Made by a program: the position numbers and the translations under genes | From: Gemmobacter lanyuensis | Lineage (GTDB): Bacteria > Pseudomonadota > Alphaproteobacteria > Rhodobacterales > Rhodobacteraceae | NCBI RefSeq assembly: GCF_014652355.1 | Contig: NZ_BMYQ01000011.1 | Coordinates: forward strand, 62,001 to 126,000 | Length of the DNA: 64,000 nt | Direction: 5' to 3' | Notes under the pieces: generated by a model | Seen by the model: the letters and a program-made list of their open reading frames with translations, nothing else | What the model was told of the DNA's origin: nothing | Database searches by the model: none | In this document: one piece after another, positions 4,512-57,112 of the stretch | Position numbering within the stretch: the stretch's first letter is position 1 | Layout: every line of letters starts with the position of its first letter

Positions 4512-6068
4512 ATGCGTGTGCTTCCCATCGGGCCGCGGACCCTTTTGGTTGAGCTTCTCGACCTTGACGAGACTTTGGCCCTGTTTGCGGCGCTGACGAC
4601 CGCCGATCTTCCGGAGATCGCCGAGATCGTGCCCGCCGCCCGCACCCTGATGATCCGTACCGCGCCCGGTGTCGCGGCCGATAGCTCTTTGGCCAACCGG
4701 ATCGCCGCCCTCCAACCTGCGTCCGGACTGCGGCCCAAGGTCGAAGGCGGGGCGGTCGTCGAAATCCCGATGTCTTACGATGGCGCTGATCTGGCAGACG
4801 TGGCGGATCATCTGGGGCTGACGGTGGCCGAGGTGATTGCAGCCCATCAGGCGGCGAATTGGCAGGTGGCCTTTTGTGGTTTCGCCCCCGGCTTTGCGTA
4901 TCTGAATGGTGATGACCCCCGGTTCGACCTGCCGCGCCGCGCCGTGCCCCGAACCCGCATTCCTGCCGGGTCGGTCGCGCTGGCCGCACGCTTCTGCGGC
5001 GTCTATCCGCAGGATATGCCCGGCGGCTGGCAGATCATCGGCACCACACGTCTGCCGATGTGGGATCTGGCGCGCGATCCGCCCGCCATGCTGCGACCGG
5101 GTCTGCAGGTCCGGTTTGTTGAGGGTCATGCCACCGTCTACCCATCAGTCGTCCCGCCCCCGCCGCCGGTGGATCCCGCGCTGACCCTGATCTCTTCCGC
5201 CTTTCCGGTGCTGTTTCAGGATGATGGCCGTCCCGGTCTGGCGCAGCAGGGAGTATCGGCCTCGGGCGCGCTGGACCATGGGGCCTTGCACCTGGCGAAC
5301 CGGGCCGTGGGCAACCCCGCGACTGCAGCGGCGCTCGAGCTGACCCTTGGCCCCGTGCGGCTGCGCGCTGTGGCGCCGGTCACTCTCGCGCTCACGGGTG
5401 CGGGGCGGGCGCAGGTTGCGGGCCAGCGGATTGCGCCGGGCGCGCCCTTTGCAATGGATGCGGGCGATGAGTTGGTCATCGATCTTCCGGCCGCCGGAAT
5501 GCGCAGTTATCTGGCGCTACGGGGGGGGTATGCCTTGGCCCCGGTGCTGGGTTCGTGCGCCACGGATACTCTGGCGCGCATCGGCCCTGATCCGCTGCGG
5601 CCGGGGGCGTCAATCGGCTGCGCCCATCGACCAGCGCAGGCAACCCGCGCCCCGGAACCCCAGCCCGCGCTGCCCAAGGTGGGCGAGGTGCTGGTGCTGC
5701 CCGTCACGCTCGGCCCCCGGGCCGACTGGTTCCCACCCGACGTCCTGACCCGTTTCCTCACGCAAGAGTGGCTCGTTACGCCCCAAAGTTCGCGCGTTGG
5801 GGCGCGGTTGGAGGGGGCGGTGCCGCTCTTCCGTCCCGAGGCGCGCGAACTTGCCTCCGAGGGGACGGAAACAGGTGCAATTCAAGTCCCCCATTCCGGG
5901 CAACCGGTGCTGTTTCTTGCCGATCACCCGCTGACCGGGGGCTACCCGGTCATTGCGACGCTGCTGCCATCGGCACTCGATCTGGCCGGGCAAGCCCCAC
6001 CCGGCGCCCTGATCCGCTTTTCCGCCGCCGCTCCATTTGCGCCCCTTTCTGTCCCGAGGCCCCAATGA
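4512..6068 (+). CDS. Fused PxpB-PxpC (KipI-KipA) carboxyltransferase/5-oxoprolinase protein
   Basis: This 518-residue protein joins two families that are usually separate. The first half (to about residue 215) is KipI/PxpB-like, with [13 protein letters not shown] and [18 protein letters not shown]. The second half is KipA/PxpC-like, with [21 protein letters not shown] and the late [18 protein letters not shown]. The same pair forms the carboxyltransferase region of urea carboxylase. ATG 4512 lies two bases after the previous stop and is a better start than TTG 4497. The stop overlaps the biotin carboxylase start in ATGA, so both products are probably made together. Fusion of the two halves is known but less common than separate genes. 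Confidence 0.87.
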
Positions 6069-7837
6069 CCCTTTTTGCCACTGGCCCGACGCGGCCCATC
6101 CGTCGCCTGCTGATTGCCAACCGGGGGGAAATCGCCGTCCGCGTGATCCGCGCCTGCCGCGATGAAGGCATCACCAGCATTGCCGTCTACGCCGACAGCG
6201 ACCGTGATGCACTCTTCGTCCGCATGGCTGATGAGGCCCATCCCCTGCACGGGGAACGCCCCGCGGAAACCTATCTTGATGCGGCCAAGATCATCGCCCT
6301 TGCGCGCACTGCCGGGGCTGAGGCGATCCACCCCGGTTATGGCTTTCTGTCCGAACGTGCGGATTTTGCGCAGGCGGTGATCGATGCGGGACTGATCTGG
6401 ATCGGCCCGGATCCGCAGGTGATCGAGGTTCTCGGGGACAAGATCAAAGCCCGCCGCATTGCCGAAGCTGTGGGCGCCCCACTGGTTGCGGGAACACCCG
6501 GCCCGGTCGAAACCCCCGCCGAGGCGCTGGCCTTTGCCAAGACCCATGGCCTACCCATCGCGATCAAGGCGGCCTTTGGTGGCGGTGGACGCGGAATGAA
6601 GGTGGCCTGGCGGCTGGAAGAGGTCGAAGAGCTGTTCGAAAGCGCCACGCGCGAGGCGCTGGTGGCTTTCGGGCGCGGTGAGTGCTTCATCGAACAGTTC
6701 CTCGACCGTCCCCGCCATGTCGAAGCCCAGGTGCTGGCCGACCGTCACGGCATGGTCAAGGTGATCGGCACCCGCGACTGTTCCCTGCAGCGTCGCAACC
6801 AGAAGCTGGTTGAGGAAGCCCCGGCCCCCTTCCTGACGGCCGATCAGCGCGCGCGCATCCATGCTTCGGCCCGCGCAATCTGCGCCCATGCAGGCTATAG
6901 CGGGGCGGGCACGGTGGAATACCTTCTCTCCGCCAATGGCACGATTTCCTTTCTTGAGGTGAATACACGCCTGCAGGTCGAACATCCGGTGACCGAGGAA
7001 ACCAGCGGCATCGACCTGGTGCGCGCGATGATCCGCGTGGCGCAGGGGGCGCAACTGGCCGATGACACGGTCCCTGAACCGCGCGGCCATGCCATCGAAT
7101 TCCGCATCAATGCGGAAGATCCGGGCCGTGGGTTTCTGCCGACCCCCGGTGCTGTGCAGATCTTTGACGCGCCGTCTGGCCCCGGCATCCGCGTGGATAG
7201 CGGTGTGGTCGCAGGCTCGGTCGTGCCGGGCAGCTTCGATTCCCTCATGGCCAAGCTCATCGTGACCGGCGCCACCCGCGAGGAGGCGCTGGACCGGGCC
7301 GCCCGCGCCCTGCGTGAATTCCGGATCGAAGGGGTTGCCTCGGTCCTGCCCTTTGACCGGGCGGTTCTGGAACACGCCGATTTCCGCGCGCCTGAGGGTG
7401 ACTTTCGGGTGCATACCCGCTGGATCGAAACCGACTTCGCCGAGGCGCTCGCCCGTGCGGTTGCCCCACATGGGCGTGTGACCCCAGCGCACCCTGCGCC
7501 GATGCTGCGCCTGACGGTCGAGATTGATGGCAAACGGCACGAACTGGGCCTGCCTGCGGGTCTGCTGGCATCGCTCCCGGCCGCGGGTGCCGTGCCCGAG
7601 GCTTCCCCTCAGCCAGAAGAGGACGCGGCCGCCGTTCTGGCGCCGGTTGCCGGCACATTGACGCTCTGGCAGGTCGACGAAGGGACCGTTGTCGAGCCGG
7701 GTCAGGTCATTGCGGTTGTCGAGGCGATGAAGATGGAAACCCGGATCGAGGCCCATCGCGCCGGTCGCCTGACAATCACGGCACAGGCGGGCGCAACCGT
7801 GATGTCGGGGTCCCTTCTTGCGCGTATTCTGCCCTAG
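6065..7837 (+). CDS. Biotin carboxylase with C-terminal biotin carrier domain
   Basis: This 590-residue protein carries a complete biotin carboxylase: [15 protein letters not shown] at the N-terminus, the glycine-rich GGGGRGMKV, and [15 protein letters not shown] near the active site. A biotinyl carrier domain follows, with the lysine in VVEAMKMET near the C-terminus. It would carboxylate its own biotin using ATP and bicarbonate in the cytoplasm. No acetyl-CoA-type carboxyltransferase subunit is present. The partner encoded just upstream is the PxpB-PxpC fusion, the type of carboxyltransferase found in urea carboxylase. I start at ATG 6065, which overlaps the previous stop and begins ahead of the conserved N-terminus; the frame is open upstream to 5768 but overlaps pxpBC. 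Confidence 0.92.
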
Positions 7838-8007
7838 CGCGCTTTCCCTCGCGCGCCGATCCCGCCATGCCTGAGATGCCGCAGTGACAAGCCAGCTTGA
7901 CGCGGGCAGCGCGGATTCTAGAGGGTTGGGACTATAAGCAAACAAAACACCGCGGCCAGAGGCGAAAAAGCCACATCTCAAAACAAAATCAATGACATGG
8001 GGATTGT

Positions 8008-8210
8008 CTAGGGCGAACTAAGTCGGTCGGCCTCAAAGCGTCCGGTTGCAGAAAAGGACATCGCATCCAGCAGGCGCGTCATTAGACGCTTTGCGGGAAC
8101 GTCCTTGCCAGTTTCCCATTTCGAAACCGCGGTCTGCGAAACGCCCAGCATTTCGGCCAAGGTCTGCTGGATGGTCCGCACACACAATCAAGTGCATCCC
8201 CTCCAGACAT
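8008..8210 (-). pseudogene. Small Cro/CI-type helix-turn-helix protein, frameshifted
   Basis: On the minus strand a frame ending at 8008 encodes RTIQQTLAEMLGVSQTAVSKW, then ETGKDVPAKR, a clear XRE-type DNA-binding helix-turn-helix. The frame is closed upstream by a stop at 8188-8190. Reading from ATG 8210 in another frame gives MSGGDALDCV. The two join perfectly if one repeat is removed from a (CA)4 run at 8179-8186 (TG on the coding strand). The gene is therefore probably a roughly 65-residue regulator inactivated by a 2-base slip. It lies just downstream of another damaged gene next to an IS110 element. Confidence 0.6.
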
Positions 8211-8260
8211 CGTGGCAGGGCGCTGGTCAATCGGTCTGGACAGTCTGCTGTAACGATCAT

Positions 8261-8667
8261 TCAGGCCGATCGCGCGAGAGCATCCGTAAGTGCGATGCCT
8301 TGTTGACGCAGTGCTGCGCGAACGCGTTGGATGAGCCTTTCAGTGCCCTCCGGCGCAAACAGCTCTGCCAGCGGCACGATCCAATATGCTCCGACAGCAT
8401 AGCCGCCCGGGATTTCATCCCAGCGGCCTTCCTCGACGTTCTGGTCTTGATCTGCGTGCCAGACGTCACTCGGCTTCTTCTGTGGACCCGGTTGTCTGAC
8501 GACGTGATAGAGGTAGAGACGAAGCTCGCTATCAGTCTCGTCCAGCGGCGGCATTTTGAGTGGATCCGGTCCTGAAAAAGACCGGCTCATCAAGGTCTGC
8601 TCCGGAGCAAAGCCGTCGACGGCACAGACCCTGAGGATGTTGATTTTCACCCAGAAGTGATGGGGTG
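8261..8667 (-). pseudogene. Unknown protein, 3' part left by an IS110-type insertion
   Basis: About 130 codons on the minus strand read as an ordinary soluble protein, with KINILRVCAVDGFAPEQ, DSELRLYLYHVV and the C-terminal IQRVRAALRQQGIALTDALA. Composition becomes implausible upstream of about 8667, where the 5' flank of the IS110-type transposase gene begins. No start codon fits. I do not recognise the family. The stop at 8261 is immediately followed by an ATG, and the HTH remnant lies downstream, so the two may once have been co-transcribed. Confidence 0.45.
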
Positions 8668-9504
8668 GATACCCCCTCCCGACGGCATCGCAATGTGCCA
8701 AGGTGATGTTGGGTAACGTCACGGGAGGGAGGGAATATCCATGGAAGATGTTAGCATCGTTGGGCTGGATCTGGCAAAGCGGGTTTTTCAGGTTCACGGC
8801 GCCGCGTTGGACGGTCGCGTTGTGTGTCGCAAGAAGCTGTCTCGAGGCCAGCTCCGCACTTTCTTTGCGCAACTGCCGCCGTGTGTCGTCGCTATGGAAG
8901 CCTGTGCGTCAGCGGACGCAATCGATCAACGCACTGCGCGCCCATCTGGCGGAGCATGGGATTATTGCCCCGCAGGGGGTGTGGAACCTGCCAGGTATCC
9001 AACGGCTGATCAATGAGGCCGGTAAAGATATCGAGCCGTTGGTGATCGAGATGTCGCGGCTCTATCTTGCGCAGATCGCGACCTTGTCGGCTCAGATCAC
9101 CTCACTGGAGGCGGTCTTGAAGAAAGAAGCCGCGCAGTCTGATGCGTCATCGCGGATGATGACGATGCCGGGCCTTGGAGCAATCACTGCCATGGCCATC
9201 GAAGCTTTTGCCCCCACGTTGAAGGTATTCCAGAAGAGCCGGGATTTTGCCGCCTGGCTGGGGCTTGTGCCGCGCCAACATTCCAGCGGAGGGAAGCAGG
9301 TTTTGGGGCGCACCTCCAAAATGGGCCAGCGTGACATCCGACGCCTTTTGATCACGGGCGCAATGTCGGTCATTCGTTGGGCGAGCCGAAAGGGCGCGAC
9401 CCCGGGATCCTGGCTTCATGCCATGCTGTTGCGCAAGCCTCGCATGGTTGTCGCCATCGCGCTCGCCAACAAGATGGCCCGCATGCTTTGGGCCATGGAG
9501 ACTA

Positions 9505-10342
9505 GGGCCTGTTGAAGTTCACCGCAGGCGAATGATGGTGGCCGCGATGGCGATGAATGCGGCGAAGCTGGTGTCGGTTTTGCAGCAGCGCGTAGCGATG
9601 CCTCTGTATTCCTTGAGCTTTCCGAAGAAGTTTTCGATCAGATGGCGCCACTTGTAGGTGTCGCGGTCGAACTCTGCCGGGAAGCGGCGGTTTGATTTGG
9701 GCGGGATCACCGCCTCGGTTCCTGCCTCGGCCAAGGTCTCGCGCAGCCAGTTCGCGTCAAACGCACGATCCGCAAGCAGCTGTCCGCCCGAAAGCCCCTC
9801 GATCAACGCCGGAGTGCCGCGCAGGTCGTGCGCCTGACCGGGCAGCAGGCGGAAGTCGATCAGGTTACCAAGGGCGTCGGTCAGCGCCATGATTTTCGTC
9901 GTCATGCCGCCGCGAGAACGACCGATGGCCTGGCCTTCAGTCCCCCTTTTGCGCCTTGGCCATGGCGGTGGACCTTGACGATGGTGCCGTCGACCATCAC
10001 GTATTCGAAGTCGGTGTCTTCGGCTAACGCCCTGAACATGATGCAGAATGCGTCGGCTTTCACCCAGCGGCGGAACCGCTTGAATACGGTATTCCACTTC
10101 CCAAACTCGGACGGCAGGTCGCGCCAAGGGCAGCCGGTGCGCGCGATCCAAAGCACCGCTTCGACGAACAGCCGTGGATCGGGGCCAGTGCGCCCGGGAT
10201 CGCACTCCCGGCCAAGACAATGCGGAGCAATGGCCGCCCATTGGGCGTCGGTCAGAACGGTGCGGATCAAGCTTGCCTCCCCTGTTGGCAAGCTTGAATC
10301 AGACAGAGGCCGACTTGGGAATCCTCAAACGTCAACAGGCCC
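9505..10342 (-). mobile_element. IS5-family (IS427-type) insertion sequence, apparently complete
   Basis: The element is 838 bp, with terminal inverted repeats gggcctgttga (9505-9515) and tcaacaggccc (10332-10342), flanked on both sides by TA, the expected target duplication. The repeat symmetry extends through the TA to 13 bp. It carries one transposase gene in two overlapping frames. It sits near the 3' end of an IS110-type transposase gene, so it arrived later than that element. Confidence 0.88.
9519..10291 (-). CDS. IS427-type transposase, orfA/orfB with programmed frameshift
   Basis: OrfA runs from 10291 to 9902 and contains LTDAQWAAIAPHCLG and GCPWRDLPSEFGKWNTV. OrfB continues to 9519 in another frame with LLADRAFDANWLRE and the DDE-region FFGKLKEYRGIATR. 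The two overlap at AAAAGGGGGA (9941-9950 on the plus strand complement), the slippery site usual for this group, so a -1 shift is likely to produce the full transposase. The DDE residues are spread over both frames. Nothing suggests damage. Confidence 0.85.
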
Positions 10343-52541: not shown

Positions 52542-53423
52542 ATGGCAGACTTTTTCACCGCGGGGTGGCGCCTTGATCCGAGCCGACCCAAAGACAGCCA
52601 AGGACAGGAACGCAGACAGGCAGTGGAGCACGCCTTGGCCAGGCTCAGCCACGCGGACGACCTCTGGGTCCTTGGGAATGCTTTCAAGGCCACGGTCTCG
52701 GTCGAGGACATCGGCAACATTCTGAGCTGCACGACCGCACGCTGCCATCTTCTCAGGGGTGAGATCGATCCAGTTACTCCTGCCCATCTAGACCTTTGGA
52801 AGACCGTCGACCTTGCTAGTGAAGTTGTGGTCGATGGTCAGCTTGTTGTGATGTCACATTACCCGATGATGTCGTGGTGGGGTGCAGCGGGCGCCCCGCT
52901 GGAAGAGCAGGTGTCTGGCGGCAAGTCGCGCAAAATCTCGATGCACGTTTTCGGTGAGGGACGTGGCGGGTTCAGGGGGTGGTGGCGAGCCGTTTCCGTG
53001 GATTGGTCCGCGCAGGGGGGAGCCTTTCTCAGCATTGATCAGGTCCGTCGGCAGAGCGAGGACAACCTCTTCGCAACGCCTTGGCTTGAAGCCTATTACC
53101 CAGATCGCCGGCGATACCGATATTGCGAACTGTGCTCAGGAGCCATCGACTGCGGGCGCAAGGATGGTGGCTATCATTGGGACGGCGACCGCCTTGTCAC
53201 ATTCCGCGGCGCGCTTGTTCTGACGCGGATCTCCCCATTTCCGGATCGCGGCATGTCCGGTCTTGCAACCGCCACCGGAGACATCTGCACGGAATGCTTG
53301 GGCGTGGCGCTACAGTATTTCGATCTTCAGGAAGGAGTGCATTACAGGCTCGCTCCAGCTGTAACCTTGCAGGTGATCGACCGATCCGAAGTGCATCGTG
53401 TGAGTCTGGAGGGTCGCGCGTGA
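52542..53423 (+). CDS. Metallophosphoesterase-like protein lacking metal ligands, with cysteine cluster
   Basis: This 293-residue protein follows the block order of small calcineurin-like phosphoesterases, but nearly all metal-binding motifs are changed. The first reads FFTAGWRLDP (residues 4-13; family TADxHxGH). The second is WVLGNAF (G45-N46, family GD), the third LLRGEIDP (72-77, family GNHD) and the last HVFGEGRG (135-142, family GHxH). Only the MSHYPM block (104-109) keeps its histidine. The C-terminal part adds cysteines CELC (195, 198), C204 and CTEC (249, 252), a probable zinc site. A strong site gaggggggagg precedes ATG 52542. Its stop overlaps the next start in GTGA. It probably acts as a binding or regulatory partner rather than an enzyme. 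Confidence 0.7.
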   Translation: MADFFTAGWRLDPSRPKDSQGQERRQAVEHALARLSHADDLWVLGNAFKATVSVEDIGNILSCTTARCHLLRGEIDPVTPAHLDLWKTVDLASEVVVDGQLVVMSHYPMMSWWGAAGAPLEEQVSGGKSRKISMHVFGEGRGGFRGWWRAVSVDWSAQGGAFLSIDQVRRQSEDNLFATPWLEAYYPDRRRYRYCELCSGAIDCGRKDGGYHWDGDRLVTFRGALVLTRISPFPDRGMSGLATATGDICTECLGVALQYFDLQEGVHYRLAPAVTLQVIDRSEVHRVSLEGRA

Positions 53424-55498
53424 CCACACTTTTCATCCCATTTAAGACCGGTCGCCTCTTGATCCTTGCCGATCTGCATCATGAAGAGGGGCTCGACCCC
53501 TTTGTGATGTTTGGCCTCGATGGGCTGGATTGGGACTCCTTCGATGCCGTCATCATTGCTGGCGACATCGCGGATGACGCCGCCAGAAACTGGGTGCCGG
53601 CCATAGATTTCTTGAGCCGCTACATCATGCGGGAACGTCTATGCATCCTGCCGGGCAACCATGACTATTTTTGCATGCACCTTCAGGCAGATGACGATCT
53701 GCATCGCATCGCGGCGGCGGCCGATGTCCAGTTTTTGCAAAAATCAGAGCTGCATCATGGGGCGACCCGCATTCTGGCCAGCACGCTGTGGACAGATTTC
53801 GCCCTTCTCGGGCCGGATAGCGTGCCACAGTCTACGGCAGTCGCCCAACCCTGGATGCCGGATTACCGCAGCATATTTCAGGCACGGGAGGGCGCCGATG
53901 GGAATGGCAGCCTGCCTGAGTTCATCACCCCGGAAGATACCGTCGAGGTGCACCGCGATCACCGGGCCTGGTTGGAGCAAAAGCTGGCGCAGCCGCATTT
54001 TGCCGGGCCAGACGGTGAAACGATCGTCATCACGCATCACGGGCCTTCTATGTTGACTGCGGGAAAACTGACCCCTCAAAGCCCTGCTTTTCATTCGGAC
54101 CTGAGCGATTTGATCGCGCGTTTCAACCCGAGTCGATGGTATTTTGGCCATTCGCACCGCCGTCTGCGTGCAGTCCAAGGCAGCACTGTGATCTGCAATG
54201 TGTCCCTCGGATACCCCGAGGATTCACGCGTCCCAGGCGAGCACCCGCTTTCGGAACTCTGTCTGTTTGAGAGCAAACCACACTGGCCGTCTGCAGCAGA
54301 GATGGAGGGGAAGGTTGGGATCGAAGCTATGCCGGTTGCCGACACCAAGGTGGACGTAGACCACCCTTCCACCAGACTTCCCGTTTCACAGTCCCTGGGA
54401 ATGTCCCGGATCCAGATCATTCATGCCCGCTTCTTCCCTGTCTCTGAGACCCAATCGGTTCTGGAACAAAGACTTACAGGCTTCCTCAAAAGGTGGCGTC
54501 GGCGACCGCAGTCCGGCCCGGGCAGCGAAAGCGGTACCCTGTCTGGATCCCAGGATATCAAAGAAAACCAGCAGCCTCTGACGGCTTTGAGTAATCGTGA
54601 CTACCAGCGGATCACTGCGCGGGCAGAGCGGTTCCTCGAATGCCGACGTCGCGCATCAAACCTGGGGCATCTCAAAGACGCCGACCGAGAACGCCTGCGC
54701 CCGCTTGCCGCGGGGGTGGATGTTTCCACGATACCTAGCCGAGATCTCGCCGACGAAATCGCTGCCACTGTCCATGCCGCGATGCCATGGATGGCGGGCG
54801 CGACCCAAGTGATTTGGGAAGCATTTCATGACTGCGCTCGATCGGGAAGGCCCCTTCATTTCCCTCCTATTCTTCTAAACGGCCCCCACGGCATCGGCAA
54901 AACTGTCTGGGCCAGGTTGGTCAGCGACCAGATCGGTGTGCCTGCCGAAGTGGTGAACGCCGGCTCCGAAAACGCAGGGTTCGGCGTCGCCGGCGTGCAG
55001 AGGGGCTGGAGCAACGCACGGCCCGGTAAACTTATTGAATGCATCCTGCGGCATCGAATGGGAAACCCAATGTTTTTTGTCGATGAAATCGACAAGGCGG
55101 GCACCGCGACCAGCGACAAGGGCCTCAGTTTTAGCCTCGAGGCAGCGCTTCTGTCTCTCCTTGAACCCGCCTCAAACAGCATGTGGGCATGCCCGTTTTT
55201 CGAGGTGGCGTTCGATGTCCGCCATGTCAGCTGGCTCTTCGCCACAAACGACATAAGCAAAATTTCCCCACCTTTCCTGGATCGCTGCAGGGTGGTTCAC
55301 GTCGAGGCCCCTACCCTGGAGCAGCTCCGAGAGTTTGTGCGGCGCGTGGGGACAGAGCGGGGCCTATCGGAGGACTCGATCTGGGCCGTGCTCGCCGCCC
55401 TTGACCAGGTGGCAACGAGGCACCGTCCAAGTTTGCGCACGGTGCTGCGGCTGATCGACAAAGCCGTATGGCTGCAGAGCAGACCGAGGCCGAATTGA
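53420..55498 (+). CDS. Metallophosphoesterase fused to a Lon/ClpX-like AAA+ ATPase
   Basis: This 692-residue protein starts at GTG 53420 behind ggaggg. Residues 1-290 are an intact calcineurin-like phosphoesterase: LADLHH (D18, H20), AGDIADD (G48-D49), LPGNHDYF (79-82), ITHHGPS (near 206) and FGHSHRRL (243-246). A linker of about 170 residues follows, rich in charged residues. The AAA+ module has Walker A NGPHGIGKTVWARL (488-495), Walker B FFVDEIDKAG (D555, E556), sensor FATND and DRCRVVHVE. The ATPase resembles Lon/ClpX but no protease or ClpP-binding part follows. Coupling to the upstream pseudo-phosphoesterase gene implies a complex. I know of no described system with this pair. Confidence 0.82.
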   Translation: MTTLFIPFKTGRLLILADLHHEEGLDPFVMFGLDGLDWDSFDAVIIAGDIADDAARNWVPAIDFLSRYIMRERLCILPGNHDYFCMHLQADDDLHRIAAAADVQFLQKSELHHGATRILASTLWTDFALLGPDSVPQSTAVAQPWMPDYRSIFQAREGADGNGSLPEFITPEDTVEVHRDHRAWLEQKLAQPHFAGPDGETIVITHHGPSMLTAGKLTPQSPAFHSDLSDLIARFNPSRWYFGHSHRRLRAVQGSTVICNVSLGYPEDSRVPGEHPLSELCLFESKPHWPSAAEMEGKVGIEAMPVADTKVDVDHPSTRLPVSQSLGMSRIQIIHARFFPVSETQSVLEQRLTGFLKRWRRRPQSGPGSESGTLSGSQDIKENQQPLTALSNRDYQRITARAERFLECRRRASNLGHLKDADRERLRPLAAGVDVSTIPSRDLADEIAATVHAAMPWMAGATQVIWEAFHDCARSGRPLHFPPILLNGPHGIGKTVWARLVSDQIGVPAEVVNAGSENAGFGVAGVQRGWSNARPGKLIECILRHRMGNPMFFVDEIDKAGTATSDKGLSFSLEAALLSLLEPASNSMWACPFFEVAFDVRHVSWLFATNDISKISPPFLDRCRVVHVEAPTLEQLREFVRRVGTERGLSEDSIWAVLAALDQVATRHRPSLRTVLRLIDKAVWLQSRPRPN

Positions 55499-55984: not shown

Positions 55985-57112
55985 ATGGACGATTTTACGG
56001 CTGTGAGTTCGATACTCGAAGTTCCCTCGGCTTCGTCGCCGGTACAATTTGAATATCTGAAAAATAGCTCGATACACCAGCTTCCGATCCTTCGGTGGCC
56101 GTATCCAAAGGCCCGCAAGCCTTTGGTGATCGTGATTGTCCTCGACGAGAGTAGAAGAGAGGAAAGCCAAGAAGAAAGGCTGTCTGCATCCAAATTTCTC
56201 CGTGCCATTTTGGATGAGTTCTGCCGCCTTCCAGGCTTCAACGGCATGGCCTACAAGATGCGAAACGCCAATTTTCCTGAAATTGGGAAAATAGGGCAAA
56301 CAAATGGTAATGCATTTGTACGCTTGGCAAGGAGCCCTTGGGCAAAGGAGTTTGGACGCACATCACATGCTGACCGTAGGGTCGACATGGTACTGGTCTG
56401 TTTGGACATCACCGCCAAGGTGGTGGAAACCACACTACACAAGGCCTTTTCAAAGCAACAGGTTAGCCTCGGATGGGGCAGAGAATGGTTCAAACTCGAT
56501 TTCAACTCTTTTTATGAGAAAATTTTAGAGTGGACTGAAAAATTGGATGTTCAAATCTGGCTGGAGCCACAAAAGCCCTTCCTACCAGAATATTTCACGT
56601 CGGCAGACAATGGGCATGCTTTGATCACGGCAATCAAACGCGACAATCCAATCGGAACCTTCTTTGGATTAGGAAAACCCAAATACCTATCTAAGCTATC
56701 AGGAAAATACACTGTTGTTTCGGATGTTTGGCTGCAAGTGCGTTTCAGGTTCCCCAAAGGGGATCTGCCGCAGCCATATTTTGAACTACCCTTTGGTCTC
56801 GACGTAGGGGGAGATTCATACTTAATTAATGAGCTTGGCAAAGTTGAGCCAAACGAGTTTGATATGATCCCTGATCTCATGCATGTTGGGAGAAGGCTTG
56901 AATGTCGCGATCCAAAACAAAAACTTCATCAGGTAGAATTCATAGGTAATATTGGTGACTATGAGATCGATCCGACGAACGACGAGTGGGAGGTCGCAGG
57001 GAAAATATATCGAGTTACGTTTTCGTCATTGGTGCGGATCAGTGAGAGTTTTCAGCGCGATCGGAATGGAAAATGGGAGCGGAGCGGCTCCAAGATCGAC
57101 ACTTTGTACTGA
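55985..57112 (+). CDS. AT-rich unknown gene with a GIY-YIG (T5orf172)-like region
   Basis: This 375-residue protein is from a gene clearly richer in A and T than its neighbours, a sign of transfer. Residues about 85-190 follow the order of the T5orf172/GIY-YIG nuclease-like domain: MAYKMRNANFPEIGKIGQTN where the tyrosine/lysine-IG motif is expected, an RLARS segment, and ETTLHKAFSKQQVSLGWGRE then WFKL. The remaining two thirds (LPQPYFELPFGLDVGGDSYL) is not recognised. It lies 490 bases after the phosphoesterase-AAA gene in the same direction. It may be a nuclease arm of the same island or an independent cargo gene. Confidence 0.5.
   Translation: MDDFTAVSSILEVPSASSPVQFEYLKNSSIHQLPILRWPYPKARKPLVIVIVLDESRREESQEERLSASKFLRAILDEFCRLPGFNGMAYKMRNANFPEIGKIGQTNGNAFVRLARSPWAKEFGRTSHADRRVDMVLVCLDITAKVVETTLHKAFSKQQVSLGWGREWFKLDFNSFYEKILEWTEKLDVQIWLEPQKPFLPEYFTSADNGHALITAIKRDNPIGTFFGLGKPKYLSKLSGKYTVVSDVWLQVRFRFPKGDLPQPYFELPFGLDVGGDSYLINELGKVEPNEFDMIPDLMHVGRRLECRDPKQKLHQVEFIGNIGDYEIDPTNDEWEVAGKIYRVTFSSLVRISESFQRDRNGKWERSGSKIDTLY

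Follow-up and report, generated by a model that had tools for sequence, protein, structure and literature searches.

A putative pseudo-metallophosphoesterase overlapping a metallophosphoesterase–AAA+ fusion in Gemmobacter lanyuensis: a candidate re-wired version of a recurrent alphaproteobacterial gene cassette

Introduction

In the SbcCD/Mre11-Rad50 complexes, a calcineurin-like metallophosphoesterase (MPE) is paired with an ATPase of the ABC type that carries a coiled coil. Here, we describe a locus in which an MPE is joined to a Lon-type AAA+ ATPase instead. It lies in a 64,000-nucleotide stretch of the Gemmobacter lanyuensis genome (contig NZ_BMYQ01000011.1, positions 62,001–126,000; hereafter, the window) and consists of two overlapping genes: gene A, which encodes a putative pseudo-MPE with a C-terminal Cys4 tail, and gene B, which encodes an MPE fused to the ATPase (Table 1). 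We refer to the families of these two genes as A-type and B-type MPEs. SbcD and Mre11 are among the weak sequence-profile matches of B, and Mre11 recurs among the fold matches of A.

Other described proteins resemble one part of the locus or another. The AAA+ domain of B is like that of Lon protease, from which B differs in having no protease domain and in being fused to an MPE. By sequence profile, the A family is matched best by Aquifex aq_1665 (PDB 1xm7), which is also the best fold match of gene A; it is a stand-alone protein of 195 residues and of unknown function. Gene A itself has lost its metal ligands and carries the Cys4 tail. An MPE fold that serves as a scaffold is found in Vps29 and in the phosphodiesterase (PDE)-fold B-subunits of eukaryotic DNA polymerases. 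For the latter, one account holds that the lost catalytic PDE motifs suggest conversion to scaffolds (PMC4996933); for Vps29, the scaffold role is named in a title cited in PMC7539009. These proteins are, however, eukaryotic and belong to other complexes, and there is no evidence that they share common descent with the loss seen in gene A. The A/B pair is best explained as a locally re-wired version of a cassette that recurs in alphaproteobacteria.

Results

Fold and metal site of gene A

An alignment with its relatives places G, R, N, E, I, H, E, and R of gene A at the eight metal-ligand positions, which the relatives fill with D, H, D, N, H, H, H, and H. Seven of the eight ligands are replaced. 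The changes fall in four of the five motifs, and HYP is retained, as the original prediction, made from the sequence alone, had described; its coordinates for the two genes and their overlap in GTGA were likewise correct. The family profile covers gene A over positions 1–286 of 288 (A is one of the five rows on which the profile was trained), and a protein search of plasmids matched it to an A-type protein of Cereibacter with 41 per cent identity over 95 per cent of its length. Pfam returned no credible match for gene A. The calcineurin-like fold that had been anticipated is recovered in a structure model (pLDDT 78.9, pTM 0.66), which was built with an alignment made of intact relatives. The first PDB match of this model in Foldseek is 1xm7 (E-value 1.5e-7, TM-score by target 0.62, root mean square deviation 8.6 over 197 columns), and later, weaker matches include LpxH, Mre11, Vps29, and a chain of a polymerase delta holoenzyme. 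Gene A thus matches the family profile and the predicted fold of a calcineurin-like phosphoesterase and lacks the ligand set D-H, D, N-H, H, H-H, which supports its designation, by sequence, as a pseudo-MPE.

The added cluster of four or five cysteines that had been noted in A is there: four tail cysteines align with those of the relatives, and the fifth (AIDCGRK) is private to A, because arginine stands at that position in Cereibacter. Homology, in the form of the Cereibacter match and the family profile, rules out that A is a chance open reading frame (ORF). A frameshift artifact as the source of the altered motifs was also rejected, since by eye the listed ORFs in other frames hold no missing motif and each half of the gene has a codon signature that fits its frame. 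With a family profile of 44 rows at an E-value of 0.001, no second, intact A gene was found in the same genome; the one match is A itself.

Gene B as a predicted active enzyme with a motor

The start of B agrees with that of its homologs, IPFKTGR corresponding to IPYRTGR in Cereibacter and Sulfitobacter. Pfam assigns it a calcineurin-like phosphoesterase domain (E-value 1.5e-7) and an AAA domain (E-value 4.5e-13). All nine positions checked are kept in its MPE domain, as they are in all 41 aligned B-type rows, the window included (41 of 44 rows, three weak ones being omitted); with this complete ligand set, B is predicted to be an active metallophosphoesterase.

The AAA+ half has the nucleotide-binding and hydrolysis residues of a Lon-type AAA+ domain. 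Columns invariant in 27 rows include those of the key residues G193, G195, and K196 (GPHGIGKT), D257 and E258 (FFVDEID), N312, R324, and R375, the last three of which we take to be sensor 1, the arginine finger, and sensor 2. Lon is the best match both of sequence profiles (E-value about 1e-27) and of a fold model restricted to the AAA+ half of B (pLDDT 86.2). Pfam finds no protease domain after the AAA+ module, and the protein stops about 65 residues past the AAA match. The description of B as an enzyme with every ligand intact and a complete AAA+ module without a protease was therefore accurate. Decay of the locus as a whole, which we considered, is ruled out for B by the intact ligands and ATPase residues.

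Met328 of B aligns with the start methionine of stand-alone AAA+ genes, and B therefore has the appearance of a read-through fusion between neighboring genes. Among the loci that we examined, an MPE and an AAA+ ATPase share one frame only in the window and its own copies. A scan of genome contigs with B alone confirmed nothing. Large phages of Brevundimonas and Caulobacter encode MPEs about 32 per cent identical to the MPE domain of B.

A recurrent cassette in Rhodobacterales

Annotated plasmid regions of Rhodobacterales hold a cassette composed of a B-type MPE, an AAA+ ATPase, a DUF6634 (PF20339) protein, a Cys-tailed A-type MPE, and a small hypothetical protein. Split relatives of B, about 40 per cent identical, were found by a plasmid protein search in Paracoccus yeei, Paracoccus aminovorans, and Ketogulonicigenium, and in Cereibacter A lies opposite a B–DUF6634 fusion on the other strand. 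In the cassettes of Paracoccus and Ketogulonicigenium, the A, B, and AAA+ families adjoin one another as they do in the window, in which a tailed A-type MPE, a B-type MPE, and an AAA+ ATPase are all present together. These cassettes differ from the window in that B and AAA+ are separate genes, A is mostly intact, and DUF6634 and the small protein, both missing from the window, are present.

The linkage of these gene families, which the original prediction required, is borne out by profile searches. Sixty-six loci, some of them short, were found through A, and in 10 of them A has the Cys tail (three of these A genes, in L079, L092, and L144, are broken). DUF6634 accompanies the tailed A in 10/10 loci, AAA+ in 8/10, and the B-type MPE in 7/10. 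Any other cassette member occurs in 8 of the 56 tail-less loci, compared to all 10 tailed ones, and the tail therefore marks membership in the cassette. DUF6634 served as a second anchor: among 390 genomes of the order, 43 contain it, and in 39 of these it scores above the curated cut-off. At one locus of up to about 12 kb from each of these 39 genomes, A, B, or AAA+ is present in 20, and at least two of them in nine. The cassette families are linked, and their order is variable.

The fusion of B to AAA+ in the window and to DUF6634 in Cereibacter suggests contact between the products; the two parts joined in the window probably touch. Fusion of a third kind is seen in Paracoccus binzhouensis (L100, 5782–7110), where the small protein of the cassette shares one frame with an A-type MPE. 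Two or three B-type MPE genes stand in tandem beside an A-type MPE or DUF6634 in L106, L131, L113, L201, and L212; some cassettes (L085, L106, L208, and L218) have HAD-type hydrolases as recurrent neighbors; and a Methylobacterium plasmid (L229) has a 3'-5' exonuclease, an MPE, an A-type MPE, DUF6634, and an MPE in a row.

On Rhodobacterales plasmids, the cassette brings together phosphoesterases of two families, a Lon-type motor that lacks a protease, and a domain whose function is unknown, and its parts occur split, fused, and reshuffled. We found no description of it in the literature searched (for DUF6634, MPE with AAA+, and inactive MPE), which was open-access only and so gives weak proof of absence. 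A natural A without ligands hints at which of the two enzymes may be dispensable.

Ligand state of A-type relatives

The alignment of A-type genes comprises 102 distinct ORFs, each of which covers 120 or more positions of the model, and the full set of eight ligands is present in 89. The remaining 13 comprise seven without the N-terminus, five with a change at the last ligand position, the one before it, or both (two of them, in L026 and L092, being broken genes), and gene A itself. In one of the N-terminally incomplete ORFs (L069), lysine also replaces the motif-III asparagine. A locus of Paracoccus ferrooxidans added later (L224) has TANPH and GNYD, that is, two changed ligands (Asp to Asn and His to Tyr). 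This A gene, at about 9413–10240, is a second, separate candidate pseudo-MPE, and no B-type MPE match was found in the stretch fetched around it.

Among the 11 genomes of the genus, with that of gene A counted, A-type matches were obtained from two others. One (L230) has all ligands by eye and is tail-less, and the other is weak. A search of 394 genomes of the family with the tailed relatives (nine candidates scored in each row shown) gave matches at an E-value of 0.01 in 34, the own genome included; the others are weak (best E-value 3e-6), and by eye most stop a little past position 40 of 168. A search with the full-length pair at an E-value of 1e-15 took in 385 genomes of the class (at most six candidates scored in each row shown) and matched nine, the own genome included; the other eight reach only position 189 of 312. 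Viral contigs yielded three distant matches to A and two to the AAA+ part.

Maintenance or decay of gene A

Our preferred explanation, held tentatively, is that A is a lineage-specific pseudoenzyme subunit, non-catalytic and retained for its fold and its tail. It would belong to an ATP-driven phosphoesterase complex in which B is the active enzyme. The cassette products would form one complex, in which the AAA+ ring may spend ATP on gripping or remodeling a protein or nucleic-acid substrate that it presents to the B phosphoesterase, and the A-type subunit may dock by its zinc-type Cys4 tail. A would have given up catalysis in this lineage and stayed in a structural or regulatory role, comparable to that of Vps29 and the polymerase B-subunits, and B alone would then perform the chemistry.

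Simple neutral decay of A fits its sequence poorly. The frame of 293 codons is open, codon usage scores highest in frame in both halves, and GC content at the three codon positions (0.659, 0.488, and 0.655) is close to that of B (0.643, 0.468, and 0.663). We simulated neutral substitution from two intact A genes (eight divergences with 2000 runs each per gene; substitutions only, and indels would make the outcome rarer). Loss of at least seven ligands with no stop codon was reached in 0/16000 and 1/16000 runs, and the frame of A was therefore probably under selection while the ligands went. Such selection could act on the protein of A or just on its coupling to B, translational coupling through GTGA being likely. 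Some role for the protein is favored by the identity to Cereibacter A, which is 68/144 (47 per cent) in the tail part and 44/132 in the N part, and by the columns conserved in at least 90 per cent of 94 relatives, of which A keeps 22/43 non-ligand and 1/8 ligand columns.

Several observations weigh against a maintained subunit. Ligand loss conserved across orthologs, as expected of a Vps29-like scaffold, is not what we see, since among the sequences compared the sevenfold loss is shared by no ortholog and is confined to one sequence from one genome. All eight ligands are retained in each of the 11 open, full-length, Cys-tailed relatives in the same alignment, so that a pairing of an active with an inactive subunit as the design of the system, put forward in the original prediction, is not supported; that prediction had itself named intact ligands in most homologs as a finding that would refute it. 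In the 21 cassette loci inspected for the state of A, the window included, A is open, tailed, and complete in its ligands in 11, open and tail-less with ligands in two (L085 and L086), open with changed ligands in two (L224 and the window), and broken by a stop, a split frame, or truncation in six (L026, L079, L092, L144, L177, and L178). A is often damaged in cassettes, and the window copy is the only one of the 21 that is open yet thoroughly altered. Loss at ligand positions does not differ significantly from loss at other conserved columns (Fisher P = 0.059 at the 90 per cent level, and 0.13, 0.26, and 0.26 at 80, 70, and 60 per cent). In the phylogeny, A sits on a branch of 7.72, compared to a median end branch of 0.1, with Cereibacter and L079 as its nearest rows by tree path. 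Relaxed selection would also give a long branch, and the length of this one implies weak constraint on the N-domain of A and an unsure position in the tree. Finally, the window has no match to the DUF6634 profile, nor has the own genome one to PF20339 at an E-value of 0.001 (9 of 22 first-look candidates scored).

Several of these observations suit the competing explanation, almost as likely, that A is dying: its activity was no longer needed once B was there, and its frame stays open because coupling to B selects against stops and frameshifts and not against missense changes. The GTGA overlap, the six broken A genes, the two changed ligands in L224, the very long branch, and the lack of a ligand-specific contrast are all in line with decay of this kind, which also accounts for the missing stops in the simulation. 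What speaks for a kept subunit instead is that the four tail cysteines still stand in a tail so similar to that of Cereibacter and that half of the conserved non-ligand columns survive, as a coupling constraint alone would not long preserve either.

A role in anti-phage defense or quality control, as originally proposed, is unlikely. There, inactive A would sense a nucleic acid or nucleotide and gate B, and the AAA+ ATPase would remodel the complex. PADLOC has no match for gene A. On B, it gives a partial match to PDC-S10 (E-value 8.2e-8; MPE domain, best stretch residues 37–123), which is a candidate model only, and two weak ones. Some AAA+ relatives also lie beside defense genes (in L214, pMARC5, Ketogulonicigenium, P. 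ferrooxidans, and L218). However, the inactivity of A is not conserved, and the A/B pair satisfies no known PADLOC anti-phage system. We also compared ORFs around 47 module and 47 control loci, scanning randomly drawn ORFs (143 of 286 and 139 of 252, respectively) with PADLOC at an E-value of 1e-15 (long ORFs cut to the middle 400 residues). No enrichment is visible, with 136 PADLOC families matched for 143 module ORFs versus 130 for 139 control ORFs (the top 25 families being listed), and a single locus, L214, supplies the cyclase, the effector, and one of the restriction matches in the module set. Similarly improbable is a bolder reading, in which the dead, zinc-tailed A is a fixed regulatory and specificity-setting subunit of an undescribed ATP-driven MPE–Lon-type AAA+ machine that acts on nucleic acids or nucleotides from phages or plasmids.

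That A was re-purposed, with a vestigial MPE fold and a Cys4 domain that acts alone (e.g. as a nucleic-acid-binding or regulatory domain) and has nothing to do with B, would agree with the better conservation of the tail than of the N part and is very improbable in view of the overlap with B and the linkage of tailed A to the cassette in other genomes.

Defense genes near AAA+ relatives

L214 belongs to the same genome (C2:15000–32000) and holds a second AAA+ copy (7404–8519, 40 per cent identical), which adjoins genes for a CBASS-type cyclase and a 4TM effector, along with type I restriction genes and a PDC-S11 candidate. On plasmid pMARC5 of Paracoccus marcusii (L226), an AAA+ relative lies between a DUF4433/DarG pair with ubiquitin-like genes and DISARM DrmA. 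Restriction or methylase genes stand beside AAA+ relatives in Ketogulonicigenium and P. ferrooxidans, and a cytosine methylase gene does so in viral contig L218. In viral contig L219, the AAA+ relative (5827–7083) adjoins an ORF of 1155 residues that is tail-protein-like by eye and has no Pfam match.

Locus layout and neighborhood

Table 1. Features of the A/B locus, in window coordinates.
Feature	Position	Strand	Remarks and basis
Gene A: pseudo-metallophosphoesterase (putative) with C-terminal Cys4 tail	52542..53423	+	293 aa; ORF, profile, alignment, fold model
GGAGG	7 bases 5' of the ATG of gene A		
Cys4 tail core of gene A (CxxC ... CxxC, residues 195-252)	53124..53297	+	alignment with relatives
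GTGA: GTG start of B over TGA stop of A	53420..53423	+	sequence
Gene B: B-type MPE fused to Lon-type AAA+ ATPase	53420..55498	+	692 aa; Pfam, profiles, alignments
MPE domain of B, every ligand residue in place	53420..54280	+	3' limit approximate
AAA+ part of B, from Met328	54401..55495	+	alignment, profiles, fold model

The genome assembly consists of 51 contigs. On the 5' side, the A/B pair is flanked by an IS110-type transposase gene, a transposase remnant, and antitoxin-like genes, and on the 3' side by genes for a low-GC MUG113 protein and an SNF2 helicase. The MUG113 protein, which we take to be GIY-YIG-like, is encoded at 55985–57112 of the window, in a stretch with a GC content of 0.47, and has a partial PADLOC match to PDC-S57. 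A GIY-YIG protein is also encoded near the AAA+ gene of a Thioclava locus (L029).

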